In this document: one piece after another, positions 53,838-63,790 of the stretch
Numbering within the stretch: position 1 is the stretch's first letter
Layout: every line of letters begins with the position of its first letter
Source of the DNA: Gammaproteobacteria bacterium
GTDB taxonomy: Bacteria; Pseudomonadota; Gammaproteobacteria; Pseudomonadales; Pseudomonadaceae
Direction of reading: 5' to 3'
Assembly: GCA_023475025.1 (NCBI GenBank)
Contig: JAMCWB010000030.1
Span: 101,568-165,567, forward strand
DNA length: 64,000 bases
Position numbers and translations under genes: made by a program
Notes under the pieces: model-generated
What the model saw: only the letters and a program-made list of their open reading frames with translations
Database searches by the model: none
Told to the model about the DNA's origin: nothing

Positions 53838-53915
53838 AATATAGGTCGCAGCGTAGATATACTCCCCGACATGGGCATTACCCGGTCCGCTATCTACGAC
53901 AATAAGGAGACAACA

Positions 53916-54842
53916 ATGAAAGCAGCTGTCATCACCGAACGTGGCGCACTTCCCATCATGCAAGACTTCCCGGAACCAGCTCCTCGGGAGGGCGCGGTAC
54001 TTATTGACGTCGATACCGCCGGCCTGGGTGGATGGGATGTCCTCGGTGCCTATCGCCTGGGGGTAGAGTACCCCTGCGTTATCCGTGGCGAAGGGGTGGG
54101 CCGCACAGAGGATGGCCAGCGTGTCTACTTCGGAGAACGCTCTGTGCTGCCGTTCGGGGCCTGGGCGGAACGGACCTTGGTGCCGGTAGAAGAAGTCTGG
54201 CCAGTGCCGGATCATATTGATGATCGCACGGCCATTACCATGGGTATTGCCGCAACCGGTGCATTGGTCCCTCTGGAAGTGGCAAATATCCAGCCGGGCG
54301 AGAGCGTTTTGATTCTGGGTGGCACCGGCACCTTGGGGCAGATTGCCCTGCAACTGGCCCGTTATCTGGGAGCGGGCAAAGTGGTTGCCGCCGGCAGAAG
54401 CGAAGAGGCTTTGGCACGTCTGAAAGAACGCGGTATCGCAGACGCAACGGTACGCTTGAAGGGTGACGACAGCGATGTGGCTGCGCTAAAAAAAGAAGCC
54501 GGGGATGGCTTTGACGTTGTTCTCGATCTGGTATGCGGGCAACCCATGCTGAATGCCTTGCAGGCCACCCGCTGGGGTGCGCGGATCATGACAATCGGCA
54601 CCGGAGCAGGCCGTCAAGTCAATCTCGACATCGCCAATCTGCTGTTCAGAACCCTGTCATGCATCGGCACCGGTCAACGCCCACCAGCGGACCGCCGCAA
54701 GATATGGGAACGCTTGCTGAACATTGCAACAGAACAGAATATCAGCGTGGACTATGCCGAATTCCCCTTCGATGACACACCAACGGCATGGACATCACAG
54801 GTAAGCGGGCCCCATGCGAAAATCTATGCAAGGATAAGCTAG
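53916..54842 (+). CDS. MDR-family NADP(H)-dependent oxidoreductase (copy 1)
   Basis: A 308-residue medium-chain dehydrogenase/reductase of the zinc-free quinone-oxidoreductase type: GroES-like N-half, then Rossmann GGTGTLGQIALQLARYLGAG near residue 130. No structural-zinc Cys cluster is present. It would reduce an enone or quinone, or act on an alcohol. Start at 53916 follows AAGGAG; the frame from 53871 is not supported. It is nearly the same protein as 61857-62783, and a truncated third copy lies 600 bp downstream. Element E controls it. Confidence 0.9.
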   Translation: MKAAVITERGALPIMQDFPEPAPREGAVLIDVDTAGLGGWDVLGAYRLGVEYPCVIRGEGVGRTEDGQRVYFGERSVLPFGAWAERTLVPVEEVWPVPDHIDDRTAITMGIAATGALVPLEVANIQPGESVLILGGTGTLGQIALQLARYLGAGKVVAAGRSEEALARLKERGIADATVRLKGDDSDVAALKKEAGDGFDVVLDLVCGQPMLNALQATRWGARIMTIGTGAGRQVNLDIANLLFRTLSCIGTGQRPPADRRKIWERLLNIATEQNISVDYAEFPFDDTPTAWTSQVSGPHAKIYARIS

Positions 54843-55447: not shown

Positions 55448-56084
55448 GCTAAACCACATCGATGATCGCACGGCTATTACCATGGGGATCGCGGCCACAG
55501 GCGCGCTGGTTCCGCTGGAAGCAGCCAGTATCCAGCCAGGTGAAAACGTTCTGATCCTGGGCGGTACCGGCACGCTCGGCCAGATTGCATTGCAGTTGGC
55601 ACGCTACCTTGGGGCTGGCAGGGTCGTCGCAGCAGGCCGAAGCGAGAAGGCTCTGGCCCGGCTGACGGAACGTGGTATCGCCGATGCAACAGTCTGTCTG
55701 AAAGGCGACGACACTGACGTTGCGGCGCTGAAAAAGGAAGCTGGCGACGGTTTCGACGTGGTGCTCGACCTGGTATGCGGACAGCCCATGCTCAAGGCGT
55801 TAAAAGCGTCGCGCTGGGGCGCCAGGATCATGACCATCGGGACCGGAGCCGGTCATCAGGTCAATCTCGATATCGCCGATCTACTGTTCAAAACGCTTTC
55901 CTGCATCGGCACTGGCCAACGCCCCCCTGCAGACCGCCGCCAGATTTGGGAACGCCTTCTCACCATCGCAACCGAGCAGAACATTTCCGTTGACTATTCC
56001 GAGTTTGCCTTTGAAGACTCGCCCCAGGCCTGGACGTCCCAGGTCGACGGCCCACACGCAAAGATCTATGCCAAAATCAGATAG
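55448..56084 (+). pseudogene. 5'-truncated third copy of the MDR oxidoreductase
   Basis: From about 55448 the frame reads HIDDRTAITMGIAATGALVP and continues to the normal C-terminus (PHAKIYAKI) at 56084, matching residues ~95-308 of the intact copies. The N-terminal ~93 residues, promoter and start are missing; the sequence upstream is unrelated. The first Met (55482) lies inside the cofactor domain and has no RBS. A perfect terminator follows at 56128. Confidence 0.8.
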
Positions 56085-56127
56085 CTACCCGCGTAGCTGG
56101 AACGCATCGGGCTGATGATTCCCCTTG

Positions 56128-56164
56128 GGAAGGACGAGCTTTTAAAGCAGATCCTTCCTTTTTT
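56128..56164 (+). terminator. Intrinsic terminator after the MDR remnant
   Basis: GGAAGGA (56128-56134) pairs with TCCTTCC (56152-56158), with an inner GCTT/AAGC stem, followed by TTTTTTATTT. Also lies downstream of the convergent ferredoxin gene. Confidence 0.8.
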
Positions 56165-56185
56165 ATTTACACGATCCCCCTGGTC

Positions 56186-56509
56186 TCAAATCTGGGTTGG
56201 AGGAAACGTCACCGCCATCCCCTCATGTTCGGCCTGCAAGGTTACACAGCAGCCCAGCCGGCTCTGGGCAAGCCGGGGAGCCGCGACCCCTTCAAGCATG
56301 TCGTCTTCCATGCCATCCATTTCCGGCAACCGATCCAGCCACGACTCGTCAATATAAACGTGGCAGGTGGCGCACTGGCACGCCCCTCCACAATCACCCA
56401 GGATCCCTTCCAGACCGTGATTGGCCGCAACCTGCATGAGCGTCTGGCCCGCAGCGGCTTCTACAACCTGTTGACGATCATCTGAAAAATTGAAAATTAC
56501 AGTTGGCAT
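56186..56509 (-). CDS. Putidaredoxin-type 2Fe-2S ferredoxin
   Basis: A 107-residue ferredoxin. CGGACQCATCHVYI gives the C-x5-C-x2-C ligands near residues 39-48, with an extra Cys inside the loop, and LGCCVTL the fourth ligand near residue 87. This is the adrenodoxin/putidaredoxin class that feeds P450s and some oxygenases. Start at 56509 follows GGAG. It is divergent from the Rieske-type genes (199-bp gap with an A/T-rich centre) and may serve them, the P450 at 10466, or both. No ferredoxin reductase gene is in the window. Confidence 0.9.
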   Translation of the reverse strand: MPTVIFNFSDDRQQVVEAAAGQTLMQVAANHGLEGILGDCGGACQCATCHVYIDESWLDRLPEMDGMEDDMLEGVAAPRLAQSRLGCCVTLQAEHEGMAVTFPPTQI

Positions 56510-56683
56510 TGGGGTTCTCCGCGCCTGACGGCTTCCGGTAACTGGGTAATTCATGATGCCTTAAGAAATCGCAGATTTGAACACTTATAAAATATCTGTC
56601 TATTTTAATTTGATTAAAATGCCGAGCCAGGCTAAAGTATTTTCAGGCATTTTCCGCAAGGCGAAGGCCACACATAACACCAA

Positions 56684-56694
56684 AACAACAATAA
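56684..56694 (+). promoter_or_regulatory. Overlapping AACAACAA/AACAATAA Hfq/Crc-type motif
   Basis: AACAACAA (56684-56691) and AACAATAA (56687-56694) directly before the RBS CGAGG of the Rieske gene. Candidate Hfq/Crc site. Confidence 0.45.
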
Positions 56695-56708
56695 CGAGGT
56701 AAACCCTG

Positions 56709-57650
56709 ATGGTTAATGGCGCTTGGTGGGCTTCGGCTTTATCCGAGGCGGTAAACAATGAAAAGCCCCTGGCAGTTGTCTGCAATGGCGAGGAGCTAGC
56801 CCTGTTTCGGGATGGGCAAGGTCAGGCGTTTGCATTGGAAGACCGCTGCCCCCACCGCCGCGTGCCCCTATCCCTTGGCTGCGTTATAGAGAGCGGAATC
56901 CAGTGTGGCTACCATGGCTGGACATTTGACGGCGCCAGCGGCGCTTGCACGACGATACCCAACCTGCACGCCAATGAACGAGTGCCTGCCCGATATGCGG
57001 CGCGACCCTACCCTGTGGCTGAGCGAAACGGATTTGTTCACGTCTGGTTAGGGGAAGGTGAGCCGAATGAGTCGGTGCCTGCGGCAACTTATCAGCCTGA
57101 AGGTTGCGAATATACCGGCGCGGGCACCATCAGTATTCTGCACGAGGAATATCTTGCCGCAATGCTCGATGGGCCCCACTGCCTGATCAGTTTTGACGCG
57201 GTAAAGATGACTGACTTCTTTTTGGGCGATCCCCGTCTGCAGGATGACCATCTGATTCTTGACCGAGGCGCAGTCTGGTCAACCAGGGTGCTGCCGCCAC
57301 AGTTCGTTGTCGACTATCCCCTGATCGTCCGTACGTCTGTTCCTGTGCGCGGAGGCGACATTCGCGTTGACCTTCTCACCGAACAGGAAGCGCCGTTGTG
57401 CACCGTTTTCATTGCCTCGGGGGCCAACCGACGCGGTACCACCAGTATCTGTTGGCGAGGCTTCCTGCCCCAGAGTGATGTCAGCCACGTAACGCTGCGC
57501 TGGAGGGTGGCACGCAAAATGAAACGCCCGCCCTTCCGAGTGCACACTCAGGTTGACGGCAAGCTCCTAGCCGCTCTGCTGGAAGCACCCTCCCGTGATC
57601 TGGCAAGGCTACGTGACTCGTCACTAATCCCCCTACGTGCCGCCGTCTGA
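56709..57650 (+). CDS. Rieske-oxygenase-like protein with intact cluster, degenerate iron site
   Basis: A 313-residue protein of the VanA/dicamba-monooxygenase type. Rieske ligands Cys47-Pro-His49 and Cys66-x2-His69 (CPHRR; CGYHGW) are intact. In the catalytic domain the D-x2-H-x4-H motif reads LDGPHCLISF: Asp154 and His157 remain, but Phe162 stands where the second histidine should be. It should hold the 2Fe-2S cluster but not a normal mononuclear iron. It is the first gene of a pair with 57672, whose protein has the opposite defect. Electrons would come from the ferredoxin encoded divergently at 56186. Confidence 0.85.
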   Translation: MVNGAWWASALSEAVNNEKPLAVVCNGEELALFRDGQGQAFALEDRCPHRRVPLSLGCVIESGIQCGYHGWTFDGASGACTTIPNLHANERVPARYAARPYPVAERNGFVHVWLGEGEPNESVPAATYQPEGCEYTGAGTISILHEEYLAAMLDGPHCLISFDAVKMTDFFLGDPRLQDDHLILDRGAVWSTRVLPPQFVVDYPLIVRTSVPVRGGDIRVDLLTEQEAPLCTVFIASGANRRGTTSICWRGFLPQSDVSHVTLRWRVARKMKRPPFRVHTQVDGKLLAALLEAPSRDLARLRDSSLIPLRAAV

Positions 57651-57671
57651 ATGCTGCCAGGAGAATTCAAA

Positions 57672-58709
57672 ATGCACACTGTATCCACCAGCGACACCGC
57701 CGCAGGGCAGCGCACCAAGCGTCCCTCCGACTGGACTCCGGTCAATTATGATCTGCACGATACTTGGTTTCCGGTCTCGCACAGTCGCGACGTGACTTCA
57801 AGACCCATCCGCCGGATCATCCACTCCCAGCCTTATTTTCTCTGGCGTGAAAACGGTATACCTCAAGCGGCAGAGTTTCATCCATCACGGCTGGCAGCCC
57901 TGCGCCACGCCAGCAGCGCCTTCACCGGCGGTTCCGGCAGCTATCCTGTCATCGAACGCTACGGCTATATCTGGGCGTGGTATGGCGACCCCGACCACGC
58001 GGATATCCAACTATTGCCCCATATCCCCTTCCTGCCCCTGGACGGCAATATTCCGGGCTACACGCAGCGGACCGTCCGGTTCGACGCCTCATCGGCGCTC
58101 TCGGTGGAAAACCTCATCGACCTGACCCACGCCGATTTTCTGCATGCCAATACTATCGGCGACGGCATCTCCGAATCCGACGTCGTCGAAGTGGAATGGA
58201 CGTCCGAAACGGTAACCAGAACCCGTATAGTCACGCAGAAGTCAGTCGCGCCAGTCATGCGCTGGGTGGGCGGGATACGCGCCAAGTATCAGGATTTCCG
58301 TGCGGTGCTGCATATTCATCTGCGCAGCAATGTCTGCATCTCCTACCCACGGTTCCGGCCAGGCTACGACATTCCCAATCTGCAGCCGTTTCTGCCGGTA
58401 GGCAGGCATCGCTCGCGTTGCGACGTGACCTTCAATACTACCGCTGCACCCTCCCCCTTTCGCTATCTGATGCCGCGAATCAATTACATCATCCAGCCCC
58501 AGGACAACTCGGTGGTACGTCCGCAGAATGAGCGTTATCTGGACGCATCAGACAGGCGTGACCTGCATTCTCGCTTCGATGCGCCTGGCACCCGATACCG
58601 TTACCAGATGGAACAACTGGCCGAGCGCCAGCGCCGAGGGGACTTCTCCTATGGCGCTGATGCCGAACCGGGACGTGACATTACTGCATTGCTAGGCATG
58701 GATGGCTAA
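57672..58709 (+). CDS. Rieske-oxygenase-like protein with intact iron site, no Rieske cluster
   Basis: A 345-residue protein of the same family. The catalytic motif ENLIDLTHADFLH has Asn147, Asp150, His153 and His158, and QPQDNSVV (Asp278) fits the carboxylate ligand, so the mononuclear iron site looks complete. Where the Rieske domain should be (residues ~60-95) no Cys-x-His or Cys-x2-His exists; the region is shortened. NdmC of caffeine demethylation is a known case of a Rieske-family subunit lacking its own cluster. Start at 57672 follows GGAG. Proposed catalytic partner of the upstream protein. Confidence 0.85.
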   Translation: MHTVSTSDTAAGQRTKRPSDWTPVNYDLHDTWFPVSHSRDVTSRPIRRIIHSQPYFLWRENGIPQAAEFHPSRLAALRHASSAFTGGSGSYPVIERYGYIWAWYGDPDHADIQLLPHIPFLPLDGNIPGYTQRTVRFDASSALSVENLIDLTHADFLHANTIGDGISESDVVEVEWTSETVTRTRIVTQKSVAPVMRWVGGIRAKYQDFRAVLHIHLRSNVCISYPRFRPGYDIPNLQPFLPVGRHRSRCDVTFNTTAAPSPFRYLMPRINYIIQPQDNSVVRPQNERYLDASDRRDLHSRFDAPGTRYRYQMEQLAERQRRGDFSYGADAEPGRDITALLGMDG

Positions 58710-58782
58710 CCGCTACGTGCCTAAGTAACCTCTTAAACCGACTGAGCGCCATGAAAGGCGCGTTAACCAGGAGAATCGTCCT

Positions 58783-59157
58783 ATGTTTTCACACGTCACT
58801 TTGGGTACCAACGACCTATCCAGAGCTCGTATCTTCTACGATTCAGTGCTTGGCGCACTGGGTTATGAAAACCTTGGTAATAAGGAAACAGCATCGCTCT
58901 GGGGCGGCGCGGGCCCGCGCTTCGTCGTGCTAAAGCCCGCCGACGGTAACATAGCCAGTGTAAGCAATGGCCTGACAGTAGGCTTTGCAGCAGCGAACCG
59001 AGCCGCAGTCGATGAGTTCCACCAGCGTGCGCTGCAAGCGGGAGGTACGGATGCTGGCGCACCCGGATTCAGAGATGTGGGGCCGAATGTGTACGCAGCC
59101 TATGTGCGCGACCTTGATGGCCACAAGATAGTAGCCAGCTGCATCAGCGAGCACTGA
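58783..59157 (+). CDS. VOC-family (glyoxalase-like) protein
   Basis: A 124-residue VOC protein: MFSHVTLGTNDLSRARIFYD at the start, AAYVRDLDGHKIVA at the end. This short type is common in Pseudomonas and usually annotated glyoxalase/bleomycin-resistance-like. AGGAGA lies before the ATG. It follows the Rieske pair by 73 bp in the same direction, so it may join that unit. The 170-bp gap after it contains a tandem ATGAAGCTT and nothing else recognised. Confidence 0.8.
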   Translation: MFSHVTLGTNDLSRARIFYDSVLGALGYENLGNKETASLWGGAGPRFVVLKPADGNIASVSNGLTVGFAAANRAAVDEFHQRALQAGGTDAGAPGFRDVGPNVYAAYVRDLDGHKIVASCISEH

Positions 59158-59327
59158 CTGGCACAGCACTGGAAGAAAGGCCGCCGGGTAGGCTACTTCA
59201 GCGGCCGATCATACTCCATGGAGTCCCTCGGCTCGCCCAGATCCACCAACCTTCGTGAACACTTCCTACTAGGACTCACTGAAATCGAATGGGAATAATG
59301 CAACGCATGAAGCTTTGCATGAAGCTT

Positions 59328-61688
59328 TCAGGCTTCAGTTAATTCGAGCTTCGCTCCCCTCTCTCCAGGCAACAGTTTGATCGGTATAAATTTTGATGCC
59401 GGGGTGAAACTGTCCACGCCGAAACTGTCCAGCGGAACCAGCGGATTTATCTCAGGATAGTAAGCCGCCGCCTGCCCTTCAGGAATATCGTAGGGAAGCA
59501 GCGTGAACCCTCTGACTTTCCGTTCAACCCTGTCATCCCACAACGAAACCAGATCAACCTTCTCGCCGGCCTCGAAGCCCAACCGGTCAATGTCCGCCTG
59601 GTTGATGAACAATACTTCGCGCTGCCCGGATACGCCCCTATAGCGGTCGTTCAGGCTGTATATCGTGGTGTTGTATTGATCGTGAGAGCGCAGGCTCTGG
59701 ACAATCAGATCGTGGCTCTTCCCACTGGCCCGAACCTTCTCGTGAATCAGACTCTCCGGCAGGGAAGTAGCTGAAAAACGCGCCTTCTCGGTGCTGGTAC
59801 GCCACACACGCTGGCTGGCCGAGTTGGGCAAGTGAAAGCCCCCAGGCTGTTTCAGACGGTCTTCAAACTGATCGAAACCGGGCACCGTCCGGGCAATCGC
59901 GTCCCGGATCAGCCGATAGTCGTCACGCATCGCCTGCCAGCTCACGGGATGATTGCCCAGCGTGGCCTCGGCGATGCCGGCTATGATCCAGGGTTCCGAG
60001 CGCATCTGCTTTGATAGAGGCTCTAGCTGCCCAAACGATGCGTGCACCATGCTGAAGGAATCCTCAACGGTGACGCATTGAGCGCCTGCTGCCTGTTGAT
60101 CGATATCCGTTCTGCCAAGGCACGGCAGAATCAGGGCGTCCCTGCCCACCATCAGATGGCTACGATTGAGCTTGGTGCTGATCTGCACCGTCAGCGCACA
60201 GTTCCTCAGCGCCTGATGAGTCAACACGCTGTCGGGCGTGGCTTGCGCAAAGTTACCCCCCAAAGCTACAAAGACACGGGCTTCGCCCTTGAGCATGGCG
60301 TGGATAGCTTCAACGGTGTTATGGCCATTGCGGCGTGGCGGCTCAAAACTAAAGCTCTCCGCCAACCGGTCGAGGAAGTCCTGCGGCGGCCTTTCATTGA
60401 TGCCCATGGTGCGGTCACCCTGAACATTGCTGTGCCCGCGCACAGGGCAGAGGCCAGCACCCGGGCGCCCGACGTTCCCACGCAATAGTTGCAGATTTAC
60501 TATTTCCTGAATAGTCGCCACGCCGTGATGATGTTGGGTGATGCCCATTGCCCAGCAGAAGATGACGTTGGAGGCCTCGCAATAGAGCTTGGCGGCCCTC
60601 TCGATGTGACCCAGACTGAGGCCTGATTGCTCGACGATATGCGCCCAATCGGTGGCGTCCAGTACCTCAAGATAGGCGGCAAACCCATCGGTCTGCAGAA
60701 GAATGAAGTCATCGTCCAGTACACCGGAAACTCCGCGGCGTTGCGCATCTCTTTCCCATGCCAAAAGGTATTTTGCCATGCCCCGGAGAATGGCCATATC
60801 GCCGCCCAGCGCCGGTTGAAAGAAATCGGTATGCATCGGTTTGGAACGATTGGTGAGCATTTCCGCCATCTTCTGCGGATGCTGGAATCGCTCCAGCCCA
60901 CGTTCCTTCAATGGATTGAAACACACCACCTGCGCACCGCGCCTGACAGCATCCCGCAGCGGCTCAAGCATGCGCGGGTGGTTAGTGCCGGGATTTTGCC
61001 CCAGAACGAATATGGCATCGGCGTGCTCGAAGTCCTCGAAGGTCACCGTGCCCTTGCCCGTTCCCAGACTCCCGTTCAGTGCTACACCGCTCGCCTCGTG
61101 GCACATGTTCGAGCAATCGGGAAAATTATTGGTACCGTAAGCACGGGCGAACAACTGATAGAGAAAAGCCGCCTCGTTGCTGGCACGACCCGACGTATAA
61201 AATTCAGCCTGATCTGGAGATTCGAGGTGATTGAGGTGATCGGCAATCACCGCAAAGGCAGCATCCCAACTGATCGGAAGATACCGATCGGTCGCTGCGT
61301 CGTAGCGCACAGGTTCCGTCAAGCGTCCCTGGTATTCAAGCCAGTAGTCACTTTGCTCACGCAACTGGGTGACGCTGTGCCGGGCGAAAAACGTCGCGTC
61401 CACCCGCCGGCTGGTCGCTTCCCAATTGACCGCCTTCGCGCCATTTTCACAGAAATTGACCGCACCGGATTCCGGTGAATCACCCCAGGCGCAACCGGGG
61501 CAATCAAAGCCTCCCTGTTGATTGGTTCTGAGCAACGCCTTGATGTTCTTGATGGGCTGTTCGCTGTTCAGCCACGCATGGGTAACGCTCAGCAACGCAC
61601 CCCAGCCAGCTGCAGGACCCTTGTAGATTTTGAACTGCGTTTTGCGGTTATGTAACCAACTCATCCGATTCACCAAGTGCGGGTGCAT
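59328..61688 (-). CDS. YdeP/FdhF-type molybdopterin oxidoreductase
   Basis: A ~786-residue cytoplasmic molybdoenzyme of the FdhF/YdeP family. GGFDCPGCAWGD near residue 57, the GRASNEAAFLYQLFAR and NFPDCSNMCHEASG blocks, ALGGNFAQATPD and a C-terminal dinucleotide-binding domain (RSHDQYNTTIYSLNDRYRG by core) are characteristic. The pattern of a 4Fe-4S N-terminal site is reduced compared with true formate dehydrogenases, as in YdeP. Substrate unknown; E. coli YdeP is linked to acid resistance. Start 61688 or 61664; neither has a strong RBS. Divergent from the second intact MDR gene. Confidence 0.88.
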   Translation of the reverse strand: MHPHLVNRMSWLHNRKTQFKIYKGPAAGWGALLSVTHAWLNSEQPIKNIKALLRTNQQGGFDCPGCAWGDSPESGAVNFCENGAKAVNWEATSRRVDATFFARHSVTQLREQSDYWLEYQGRLTEPVRYDAATDRYLPISWDAAFAVIADHLNHLESPDQAEFYTSGRASNEAAFLYQLFARAYGTNNFPDCSNMCHEASGVALNGSLGTGKGTVTFEDFEHADAIFVLGQNPGTNHPRMLEPLRDAVRRGAQVVCFNPLKERGLERFQHPQKMAEMLTNRSKPMHTDFFQPALGGDMAILRGMAKYLLAWERDAQRRGVSGVLDDDFILLQTDGFAAYLEVLDATDWAHIVEQSGLSLGHIERAAKLYCEASNVIFCWAMGITQHHHGVATIQEIVNLQLLRGNVGRPGAGLCPVRGHSNVQGDRTMGINERPPQDFLDRLAESFSFEPPRRNGHNTVEAIHAMLKGEARVFVALGGNFAQATPDSVLTHQALRNCALTVQISTKLNRSHLMVGRDALILPCLGRTDIDQQAAGAQCVTVEDSFSMVHASFGQLEPLSKQMRSEPWIIAGIAEATLGNHPVSWQAMRDDYRLIRDAIARTVPGFDQFEDRLKQPGGFHLPNSASQRVWRTSTEKARFSATSLPESLIHEKVRASGKSHDLIVQSLRSHDQYNTTIYSLNDRYRGVSGQREVLFINQADIDRLGFEAGEKVDLVSLWDDRVERKVRGFTLLPYDIPEGQAAAYYPEINPLVPLDSFGVDSFTPASKFIPIKLLPGERGAKLELTEA

Positions 61689-61856: not shown

Positions 61857-62783
61857 ATGAAAGCAGCTGTCATTACCGAACGCGGCGCCCTTCCCGTCAT
61901 GCAGGATTTCAAGGAACCGGAAGCCCAGGACGGCGCGATACTGATTGATGTTGATACTGCTGGCCTCGGCGGCTGGGATGTGCTCGGCGCGTATCGACTG
62001 GGCGTAGCCTATCCCTGCATCATCCGGGGCGAGGGCGTCGGCCGCACGGCAGAAGGCAAGCGGGTGTACTTCGGCGAACGTTCTGTACTGCCTTTTGGCG
62101 CTTGGGCCGAACGCACATTGGTCCCTGCCGAAGAAGTCTGGGAGGTGCCGGACCATATCGATGACCGTACCGCCATTACCATGGGTATTGCCGCAACCGG
62201 CGCGCTGATCCCGCTGGAAACCGCAAAGATTCAGCCCGGTGAGACTGTATTGATCCTCGGCGGCACCGGCACGCTCGGGCAGATCGCCCTGCAGCTTGCC
62301 CGTTATCTGGGAGCGGGCAAGGTCGTTGCCGCAGGCAGAAGCGAAGCAGCTCTGGCACGCTTGAAAGAGCGCGGAATTACCGACGCGACGGTATGCCTCA
62401 AAGGTGATGAAACTGATGTGGCGGCACTCAAAGCCGAAGCGGGAGAAGGTTACGACGTAGTGCTTGATCTGGTGTGTGGTCAGCCCATGCTAAATGCATT
62501 GAAGGCAACGCGGTGGGGGGCACGCATCGTGACCGTCGGCACCGGTGCGGGACGGCAACTCAATCTGGATATCGCCGATCTCCTGTTCAGGACGCTTTCA
62601 TGCATCGGCACCGGCCAACGTCCTCCAGCAGACAGGCGTAAAATATGGGAACGCTTGCTTGATATTTCTGCAACAGAAAATATCACTGTCGACTATGCCG
62701 AATTCGACTTCGCAGATACAACCAAGGCGTGGGAGTCACAGGTGAACGGGCCGCACGCAAAGATCTATGCGAAGATCAGTTAA
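61857..62783 (+). CDS. MDR-family NADP(H)-dependent oxidoreductase (copy 2)
   Basis: A 308-residue zinc-free MDR protein, collinear without gaps with 53916-54842 (MKAAVITERGALPVMQDF; GGTGTLGQIALQLARYLGAG; CIGTGQRPPADRRKIWERLL by core). AAGGAG precedes the ATG. The same upstream element type (F versus E) shows that gene and promoter were duplicated together or are kept under the same control. Differences are scattered, so the duplication is not very recent. An IS3-type element begins 60 bp after its stop. Confidence 0.9.
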   Translation: MKAAVITERGALPVMQDFKEPEAQDGAILIDVDTAGLGGWDVLGAYRLGVAYPCIIRGEGVGRTAEGKRVYFGERSVLPFGAWAERTLVPAEEVWEVPDHIDDRTAITMGIAATGALIPLETAKIQPGETVLILGGTGTLGQIALQLARYLGAGKVVAAGRSEAALARLKERGITDATVCLKGDETDVAALKAEAGEGYDVVLDLVCGQPMLNALKATRWGARIVTVGTGAGRQLNLDIADLLFRTLSCIGTGQRPPADRRKIWERLLDISATENITVDYAEFDFADTTKAWESQVNGPHAKIYAKIS

Positions 62784-62882: not shown

Positions 62883-63790
62883 TCAGGCCGCCATGGTCTG
62901 ACCGGATTGTTGCTGGTAGAAGTTTGCCTCAGCTTCTGCCGGGGGTATATACCCAATCGAGCTCAGCAACCGCTGGTGATTGTACCAGTGAACCCATTTC
63001 AAAGTGGCGATTTCCACGGCTTCGCGACTACGCTAGGACTGCCGATAGATCAGCTCCGCTTTGTATAACCCGTTGATGGTTTCAGCCAAAGCGTTGTCAT
63101 AGCTATCGCCTTTGCTGCCTACAGAGGGCTCTATGCCGGCCTCAGCGAGACGCTCGGTGTATCGGATGGAGACGTATTGGCTACCCCTGTCGCTATGGTG
63201 TATCAGGCCGTCCATGCGGCTCGGCTGTCGAGCGTGCAGCGCTTGCTCCAGGGCATCCAGAACGAAGTCTGTTCGCATGCTGTTGCTCACCCGCCAGCCA
63301 ACGATACGCCGGGCAAATACATCGACCACGAAGGCGACGTAGAGCCAGCCTTGCCACGTTGAAACATAAGTAAAGTCGGACACCCATAGCTGATTGGGTC
63401 GATCCGCATGGAACTGGCGTTGGACCCTATCCAGCGGACAAATCGCGTTCTCATTCGGGATGGTGGTGCGGATCACATGACCGCGACGAACGCCCTGCAG
63501 GCCCAGTTGACGCATCAGCCGCTGTACCGTGCAGCGAGCAATATCAATGCCCTCACGCTTGAGTTGCTTCCAGACTTTCACGACGCCATAGCACTGCATA
63601 TTGTCATCCCAGACTCGCTGGATTTTATCGCTCAACAGCTCGTCCTGTTTGGCACGAGCGCTTCGCAGTTCGGGTTGACGGGCTTTGGCTGCATGCACGT
63701 AATAACCGGACGGAGCGATCTGGATTACCCGACAGATCGACTCGACTCCGTAGCGGTCACGGTACTCGTCAACGAAGGCGTTCAGGGTTT
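62883..63790 (-). pseudogene. IS3-family transposase orfB with in-frame nonsense codon
   Basis: DDE integrase domain: WVSDFTYV (Asp), HHSDRGSQYVS (Asp) and NALAETINGLYKAE (Glu). After IYRQS a TAG at 63048-63050 interrupts the frame, yet the same frame continues with SREAVEIATLKWVHWYN and ends EAEANFYQQQSGQ..TMAA at the TGA 62883-62885. Comparison with the family suggests a Trp codon became TAG. The last ~55 residues are lost unless the stop is suppressed, so transposition is probably impaired. Confidence 0.82.

Follow-up and report, generated by a model that had tools for sequence, protein, structure and literature searches.

A putative Rieske oxygenase with its cluster and its iron site on two adjacent alpha-like proteins

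In ordinary Rieske oxygenases each alpha subunit carries both redox centres, and cluster and iron lie about 12 Å apart between neighbouring chains versus about 45 Å within a chain (PMC12445004). Can the two centres also be divided between two different proteins? This question is raised by two neighbouring genes, encoding the proteins p1 and p2, in a 64,000-nucleotide stretch (hereafter the window) of contig JAMCWB010000030.1 from a gammaproteobacterium of the family Pseudomonadaceae (assembly GCA_023475025.1). An earlier note on this DNA had described p1 as retaining the cluster and p2 as retaining the iron site, and had proposed a heteromer with split centres. Our analysis leads to the prediction that p1 and p2 form one hetero-oligomeric Rieske oxygenase in which electrons would likely pass from the p1 cluster to the p2 iron, a reading to which we give a probability of roughly three in four. 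Its basis is the conservation and loss of ligands, the adjacency and co-inheritance of the genes, and the confident placement of p1 against p2 in two structural models.

Complementary metal sites in p1 and p2

The features of the two genes are the following; the ligand pairs of p1 and the iron-site motif of p2 were located by alignment.

56709-57650, plus strand: p1, Rieske-cluster subunit with lost iron site, 313 residues
56847-56855, plus strand: first Rieske ligand pair of p1, C47-x-H49
56904-56915, plus strand: second Rieske ligand pair of p1, C66-x-x-H69
57159-57194, plus strand: degenerate iron-site motif of p1, AMLDGPHCLISF, with D154 kept and the second His replaced by F162
57672-58709, plus strand: p2, iron-site subunit without Rieske cluster, 345 residues from the probable start (frame open from 57651)
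57891-57953, plus strand: shortened cluster region of p2, LAALRHASSAFTGGSGSYPVI; both Cys-His pairs lie here in intact relatives
58110-58145, plus strand: intact iron-site motif of p2, NLIDLTHADFLH (N-L-I-D-L-T-H-A-D-F-L-H)
58503-58505, plus strand: third iron ligand of p2, D285

The gene coordinates in the earlier note are right. The start of p2 is probably at 57672, where we placed it because of an AGGAG site and of the 345-residue length of the nearest listed clusters (P0121 and P0122); residue numbering of p2 nevertheless counts from 57651.

The p1 protein has a Pfam Rieske domain (74.6 bits), no match to VanA_C (PF19112) at E 1, and no reductase domain in the domain search. In an alignment with the best 120 listed of its 1100 homologues (121 rows), C47, H49 and C66 are present in all rows and H69 in 120, and p1 thus has both Cys-His pairs of a Rieske alpha subunit. 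Its iron-site motif is degenerate. In the window protein the Asn is replaced by A151 and the second His by F162, while D154 and H157 are present. Position 151 is A or V in 113 rows and N in none. Position 162 is F in 113 rows, I in 4, L in 2, T and M in 1 each, and never His. The first iron His, present in the window as H157, is not conserved across the p1 family (E 72, Q 29, D 12, H 7, N 1), and the column of the third ligand is a gap in the aligned p1. The replacement of the second His by F162 had been noticed before; the loss of the iron site turns out to be wider, as it includes the Asn, an unconserved first His and the missing third ligand. This dead catalytic half of p1 still holds many highly conserved residues.

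The p2 protein shows the reverse pattern. It belongs to the VanA_C family (112.7 bits versus a cut-off of 23.5), and the domain search gave no Rieske match. When aligned with the best 120 listed of its 266 homologues (121 rows), its iron ligands are nearly invariant: N154 in 120 rows, D157 and H160 in 121, H165 in 119 and D285 in 118. The cluster region is shortened, as the earlier note had it, with 27 residues between two shared alignment columns versus 56-58 in four intact oxygenases and 61 in p1. No conserved set of Cys-His pairs occurs in the N-terminal half of p2 over the 121 rows. The conserved His residues are at positions 58 (118/121), 221 (121/121) and 223 (114/121), and one Cys is common, C229 (96/121). 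A C-x-H...C-x-x-H pattern in one homologue (the p2 of locus L073) starts at residue 46, by eye ahead of the ligand region, and was taken as chance. Alternative ligands restoring a full site, the finding that would have spoken against complementary losses, were searched for on the alignments and found in neither protein.

Pairing across genomes and predicted placement

The gene-pair search suggested earlier was carried out by scanning public genomes with the p2 alignment, which gave 258 places, the best 80 being kept as loci. In 79 of these, p1 lies directly upstream on the same strand; the 80th (L070) begins inside p2 at a contig edge. The metal-site loss is reciprocal in all 79 pairs, none of which combines iron site and cluster in one chain. 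Two pairs are incomplete, one with an undetermined p1 residue (L061) and one whose p2 is cut by the contig end (L088); the third ligand D of p2 is present in 78 pairs, the remaining p2 being the cut one. With a scripted choice of starts, the gaps between p1 and p2 range from -20 to 93 bases, and 13 pairs overlap. Besides Gamma-, Beta- and Alphaproteobacteria, one verrucomicrobial metagenome-assembled genome has the pair.

Among 198 genomes of the host family, p1 and p2 are found in an identical set of 9, the window genome included. The pair of Halopseudomonas bauzanensis (L013) is 98% (p1) and 99% (p2) identical to that of the window, whose host is therefore most likely a Halopseudomonas. When 369 genomes of the class were searched by profile at E 1e-40, matches to either protein came solely from the genome of the window, suggesting a rare pair. 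In 149 genomes of the family of G591, a set without a positive genome, p2 had no match and p1 had four, restricted to the Rieske part, in frames of 379-466 residues. The p2 gene is also present on four plasmid records, and in the two examined it is preceded by an annotated Rieske protein of p1 length; on the Massilia putida plasmid the two genes overlap by 4 bases. One plasmid annotation reads 'Rieske 2Fe-2S domain-containing protein' and 'oxygenase', the other 'Rieske (2Fe-2S) protein' and 'aromatic ring-hydroxylating dioxygenase subunit alpha'. Existing annotation hides the complementary nature of the pair.

A tree was built that also included intact relatives (25 rows) and cluster-less proteins from a different group (ten rows, seven genes). 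In it, the 16 rows of p1 come together as a single group (100/100) on a long stem, and so do the 16 rows of p2. Because of these long branches, the tree does not decide whether p1 and p2 are sisters, i.e. products of one duplication, or derive from two different oxygenases.

Structures were predicted with AlphaFold2 by reading the two genes through as one chain, for the window pair and for a distant sphingomonad pair (L079). The predicted template modelling scores (pTM) were 0.80 and 0.85, respectively, whereas we estimate that unplaced halves would give 0.5-0.56. In both models p1 and p2 are placed confidently against each other, and the two proteins are thus predicted to bind. The p1 protein keeps the alpha-subunit fold, with its Rieske domain and catalytic domain. 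In the N-terminal domain of p2, six strands (352-425 and 359-430 in the two models) match those framing the Rieske domain of p1. The short strands between the framing strands are absent in p2; in p1 there are four of them in the window model and, in the L079 model, one of at least 3 residues. The top fold match listed for both proteins is dicamba monooxygenase (DMO); the fold-match rows (VIA-align) of the two fused models mainly cover one half each, p1 in one and p2 in the other.

Readings of the pair and known systems

The proposal of a heteromer with split centres is therefore supported by the family-wide losses, the adjacency in 79 of 80 loci, the identical set of 9 in 198 genomes and the two confident models. 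Several observations weigh against it. In ordinary Rieske oxygenases an Asp bridges both centres, and its equivalent in p1, D154 (57168-57170), should be useless without iron; all 121 rows and 78 of the 79 pairs show it. Perhaps this residue holds a p1-p1 or p1-p2 contact. For the modelled complex, judged by pTM, a p1 cluster facing the p2 iron is one option; with the faces paired the other way round, the pTM would fit equally well. The read-through linker biases the models towards contact, and paired rows amount to 9 of 86 and 7 of 59 in the two alignments, six pairs being in both. Covariation was calculated as mutual information with average-product correction for 78 of the 79 pairs (43 effective), the one with the cut p2 being dropped. 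It gave no signal that could be used: the top score between the proteins (5.3) is below the top score within a protein (6.0). Among the top 200 between-protein pairs, the enrichment of domain blocks ranges from 0.68 to 1.23-fold; the block of the p1 Rieske half with the p2 catalytic half is not enriched (1.01), and the highest value is that of the two catalytic halves (1.23). Distances within p1 and within p2 correlate (r 0.94, and 0.89 in 42 non-redundant pairs), and this correlation shows co-inheritance, not contact. A relative of the ferredoxin that is our candidate electron donor lies within the fetched flanks in just 18 of the 80 loci. Finally, a three-membered ring cannot alternate two subunits evenly.

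The nearest precedent is NdmCDE, the 7-methylxanthine N7-demethylase of Pseudomonas putida CBB5 (PMC4408171, PMC10380055). There, the cluster is missing from NdmC, with which the additional Rieske cluster of NdmD is postulated to be aligned by NdmE; the complex is given as three of each (PMC10380055). As in NdmCDE, a cluster-less iron oxygenase subunit, here p2, would be served by the cluster of another polypeptide. NdmCDE, however, has its Rieske domain as part of the reductase NdmD and requires a GST (glutathione S-transferase)-like NdmE, whereas here no fusion to an FNR-type reductase was found in the 91%-complete genome and the paired cluster is on p1, a second alpha-like protein whose own iron site is lost. 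The contrast with NdmC drawn in the earlier note, namely that its cluster comes from a reductase, agrees with these papers.

In a reading that we consider clearly less likely, p1 would serve a p2 homotrimer as a detachable Rieske carrier, as is thought for the Rieske domain of NdmD with NdmC. The electron path would be the same but without a mixed oxygenase ring, and p1 would otherwise be a docking remnant. The shrunken cluster region of p2 could indeed make room for a Rieske domain. However, the alpha-subunit fold of p1 and its conserved dead catalytic half exceed what a carrier appears to need, and no GST-like NdmE turned up among the eight neighbouring proteins, to which the search for it was limited. 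Should p1 and p2 instead work apart, p1 would be a Rieske carrier or sensor, and p2 would be fed by another Rieske protein or by a ferredoxin directly. Such other Rieske matches exist in the genome (91% complete), for instance in frames of 111, 147 and 203 residues, and the neighbours of the pair vary between lineages. We nonetheless find separate roles improbable, given that the genes stand side by side in 79 of 80 loci with the 80th cut, occur in the identical 9 of 198 genomes, and were twice modelled together with confidence. That each protein lacks one metal site could also suggest decayed remnants of one or two oxygenase genes, and a nearby gene (55482-56084) is a shortened copy of its neighbour. 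This explanation has hardly any credit with us: it is already contradicted by the remaining ligands, which are strictly conserved across very different sequences, and the losses are complementary, not random.

The predicted heteromer also differs from other known assemblies. DMO, a VanA-type alpha3 oxygenase, is among the nearest solved sequences and shares the VanA_C domain with p2. Unlike p1 and p2, it has both centres in one chain. The alpha3 beta3 ring-hydroxylating dioxygenases (naphthalene dioxygenase type) likewise contain two kinds of subunit. Their beta subunit is without the alpha-subunit fold, whereas p1 and p2 are both alpha-like. This beta subunit has no catalytic centres (PMC12445004). 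NdmA and NdmB are two different oxygenase alpha proteins in one assembly, listed as an alpha3 alpha'3 heterohexamer (PMC12445004). Each of them is a Rieske monooxygenase with non-haem iron, whereas p1 and p2 have one centre each.

Cluster-less proteins were also met in other arrangements. In L134:736-2228 (G713) and L135:1721-3216 (G653), a stand-alone Rieske protein of 216 or 217 residues overlaps by 4 bases a cluster-less protein of 281 residues whose iron motif is intact (in L134, VanA_C by Pfam). A GST-like frame, recognised by eye, comes next in L134. These loci look like NdmC/NdmE-like sets with the cluster on a small separate protein, and thus like a second, differently built split. In L131 (G621) and L132 (G604), two tandem cluster-less proteins each have an intact iron motif (VanA_C by Pfam in L131).

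Neighbourhood, proposed mechanism and meaning

Two further genes flank the pair.

56186-56554, minus strand: divergent [2Fe-2S] ferredoxin, candidate electron donor for p1 (Pfam Fer2 above cut-off)
downstream of p2: glyoxalase/VOC superfamily protein

The best NCBIfam match of the ferredoxin is fdx_isc (ISC type), far below cut-off. The neighbours of the pair are catabolic genes that differ by lineage. In the window they include acyl-CoA dehydrogenase, carboxylase, HMGL-like, CoA transferase and thiolase genes; we read the acyl-CoA dehydrogenase, carboxylase and HMGL-like genes as being of the leucine/isoprenoid type. The Pseudomonas loci have CoA transferase, acyl-CoA dehydrogenase, APH and SDR genes, the Massilia plasmid has DUF1302, DUF1329, YCF48, MMPL, enoyl-CoA hydratase and Zn dehydrogenase, and the sphingomonads have luciferase-like monooxygenases and a ferredoxin. 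That the substrate is hydrophobic and catabolic would be no more than a fair guess. A link with diterpenoid (dit) clusters is conceivable for LB400. A scan for promoters and terminators over 56100-59330 gave 1 and 2 sites, below the shuffle means of 1.7 and 2.8. The 91%-complete genome yielded no NdmD-like Rieske-reductase fusion; its longest frame with a Rieske match, of 488 residues, is an oxygenase alpha subunit by Pfam.

Around the pair there are three PIG3-like zinc/quinone dehydrogenase genes (53871-54842, 55482-56084 and 61857-62783) with proteins 83-88% identical, the middle copy being without its first part; the fetched flanks of 19 of the 80 loci contain a relative. An FdhF/YdeP-type molybdopterin oxidoreductase (59328-61688) and an IS3-family transposase (63033-63698) are also encoded near the pair.

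In the proposed mechanism, a small ferredoxin, perhaps the divergent neighbour, would reduce the p1 cluster. The p1 protein would dock on p2 by an interface that goes back to the head-to-tail contact in ordinary Rieske trimers, across which each subunit's cluster serves the iron of its neighbour, and p2 would bind the substrate and activate oxygen at its N-D-H-H-D site. The complex could be a ring containing both proteins or a trimer of p2 surrounded by three p1, the latter being suggested by the NdmCDE complex reported as three of each. The likely origin of the split is duplication, degeneration and complementation, with each of two complete alpha subunits losing one centre, given that the working unit of these enzymes already lies between two chains. 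We think it rather probable that the pair is an obligate heteromer with its redox centres split over two related alpha-type subunits, each alone a pseudo-enzyme, so that every turnover would require electron transfer between proteins; this would be active-site duplication, degeneration and complementation. A literature search by title or beginning of abstract, with subscription journals mostly outside its coverage, returned no description of such a pair.

The rule that electrons pass between subunits rests largely on assemblies with both centres in each alpha chain, where they are not separately changeable. In a natural pair with one centre per chain, cluster and iron could each be loaded, mutated, titrated and observed independently of the other, and the electron path between subunits would become directly testable. 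The pair also illustrates how a composite active site may be divided after duplication.
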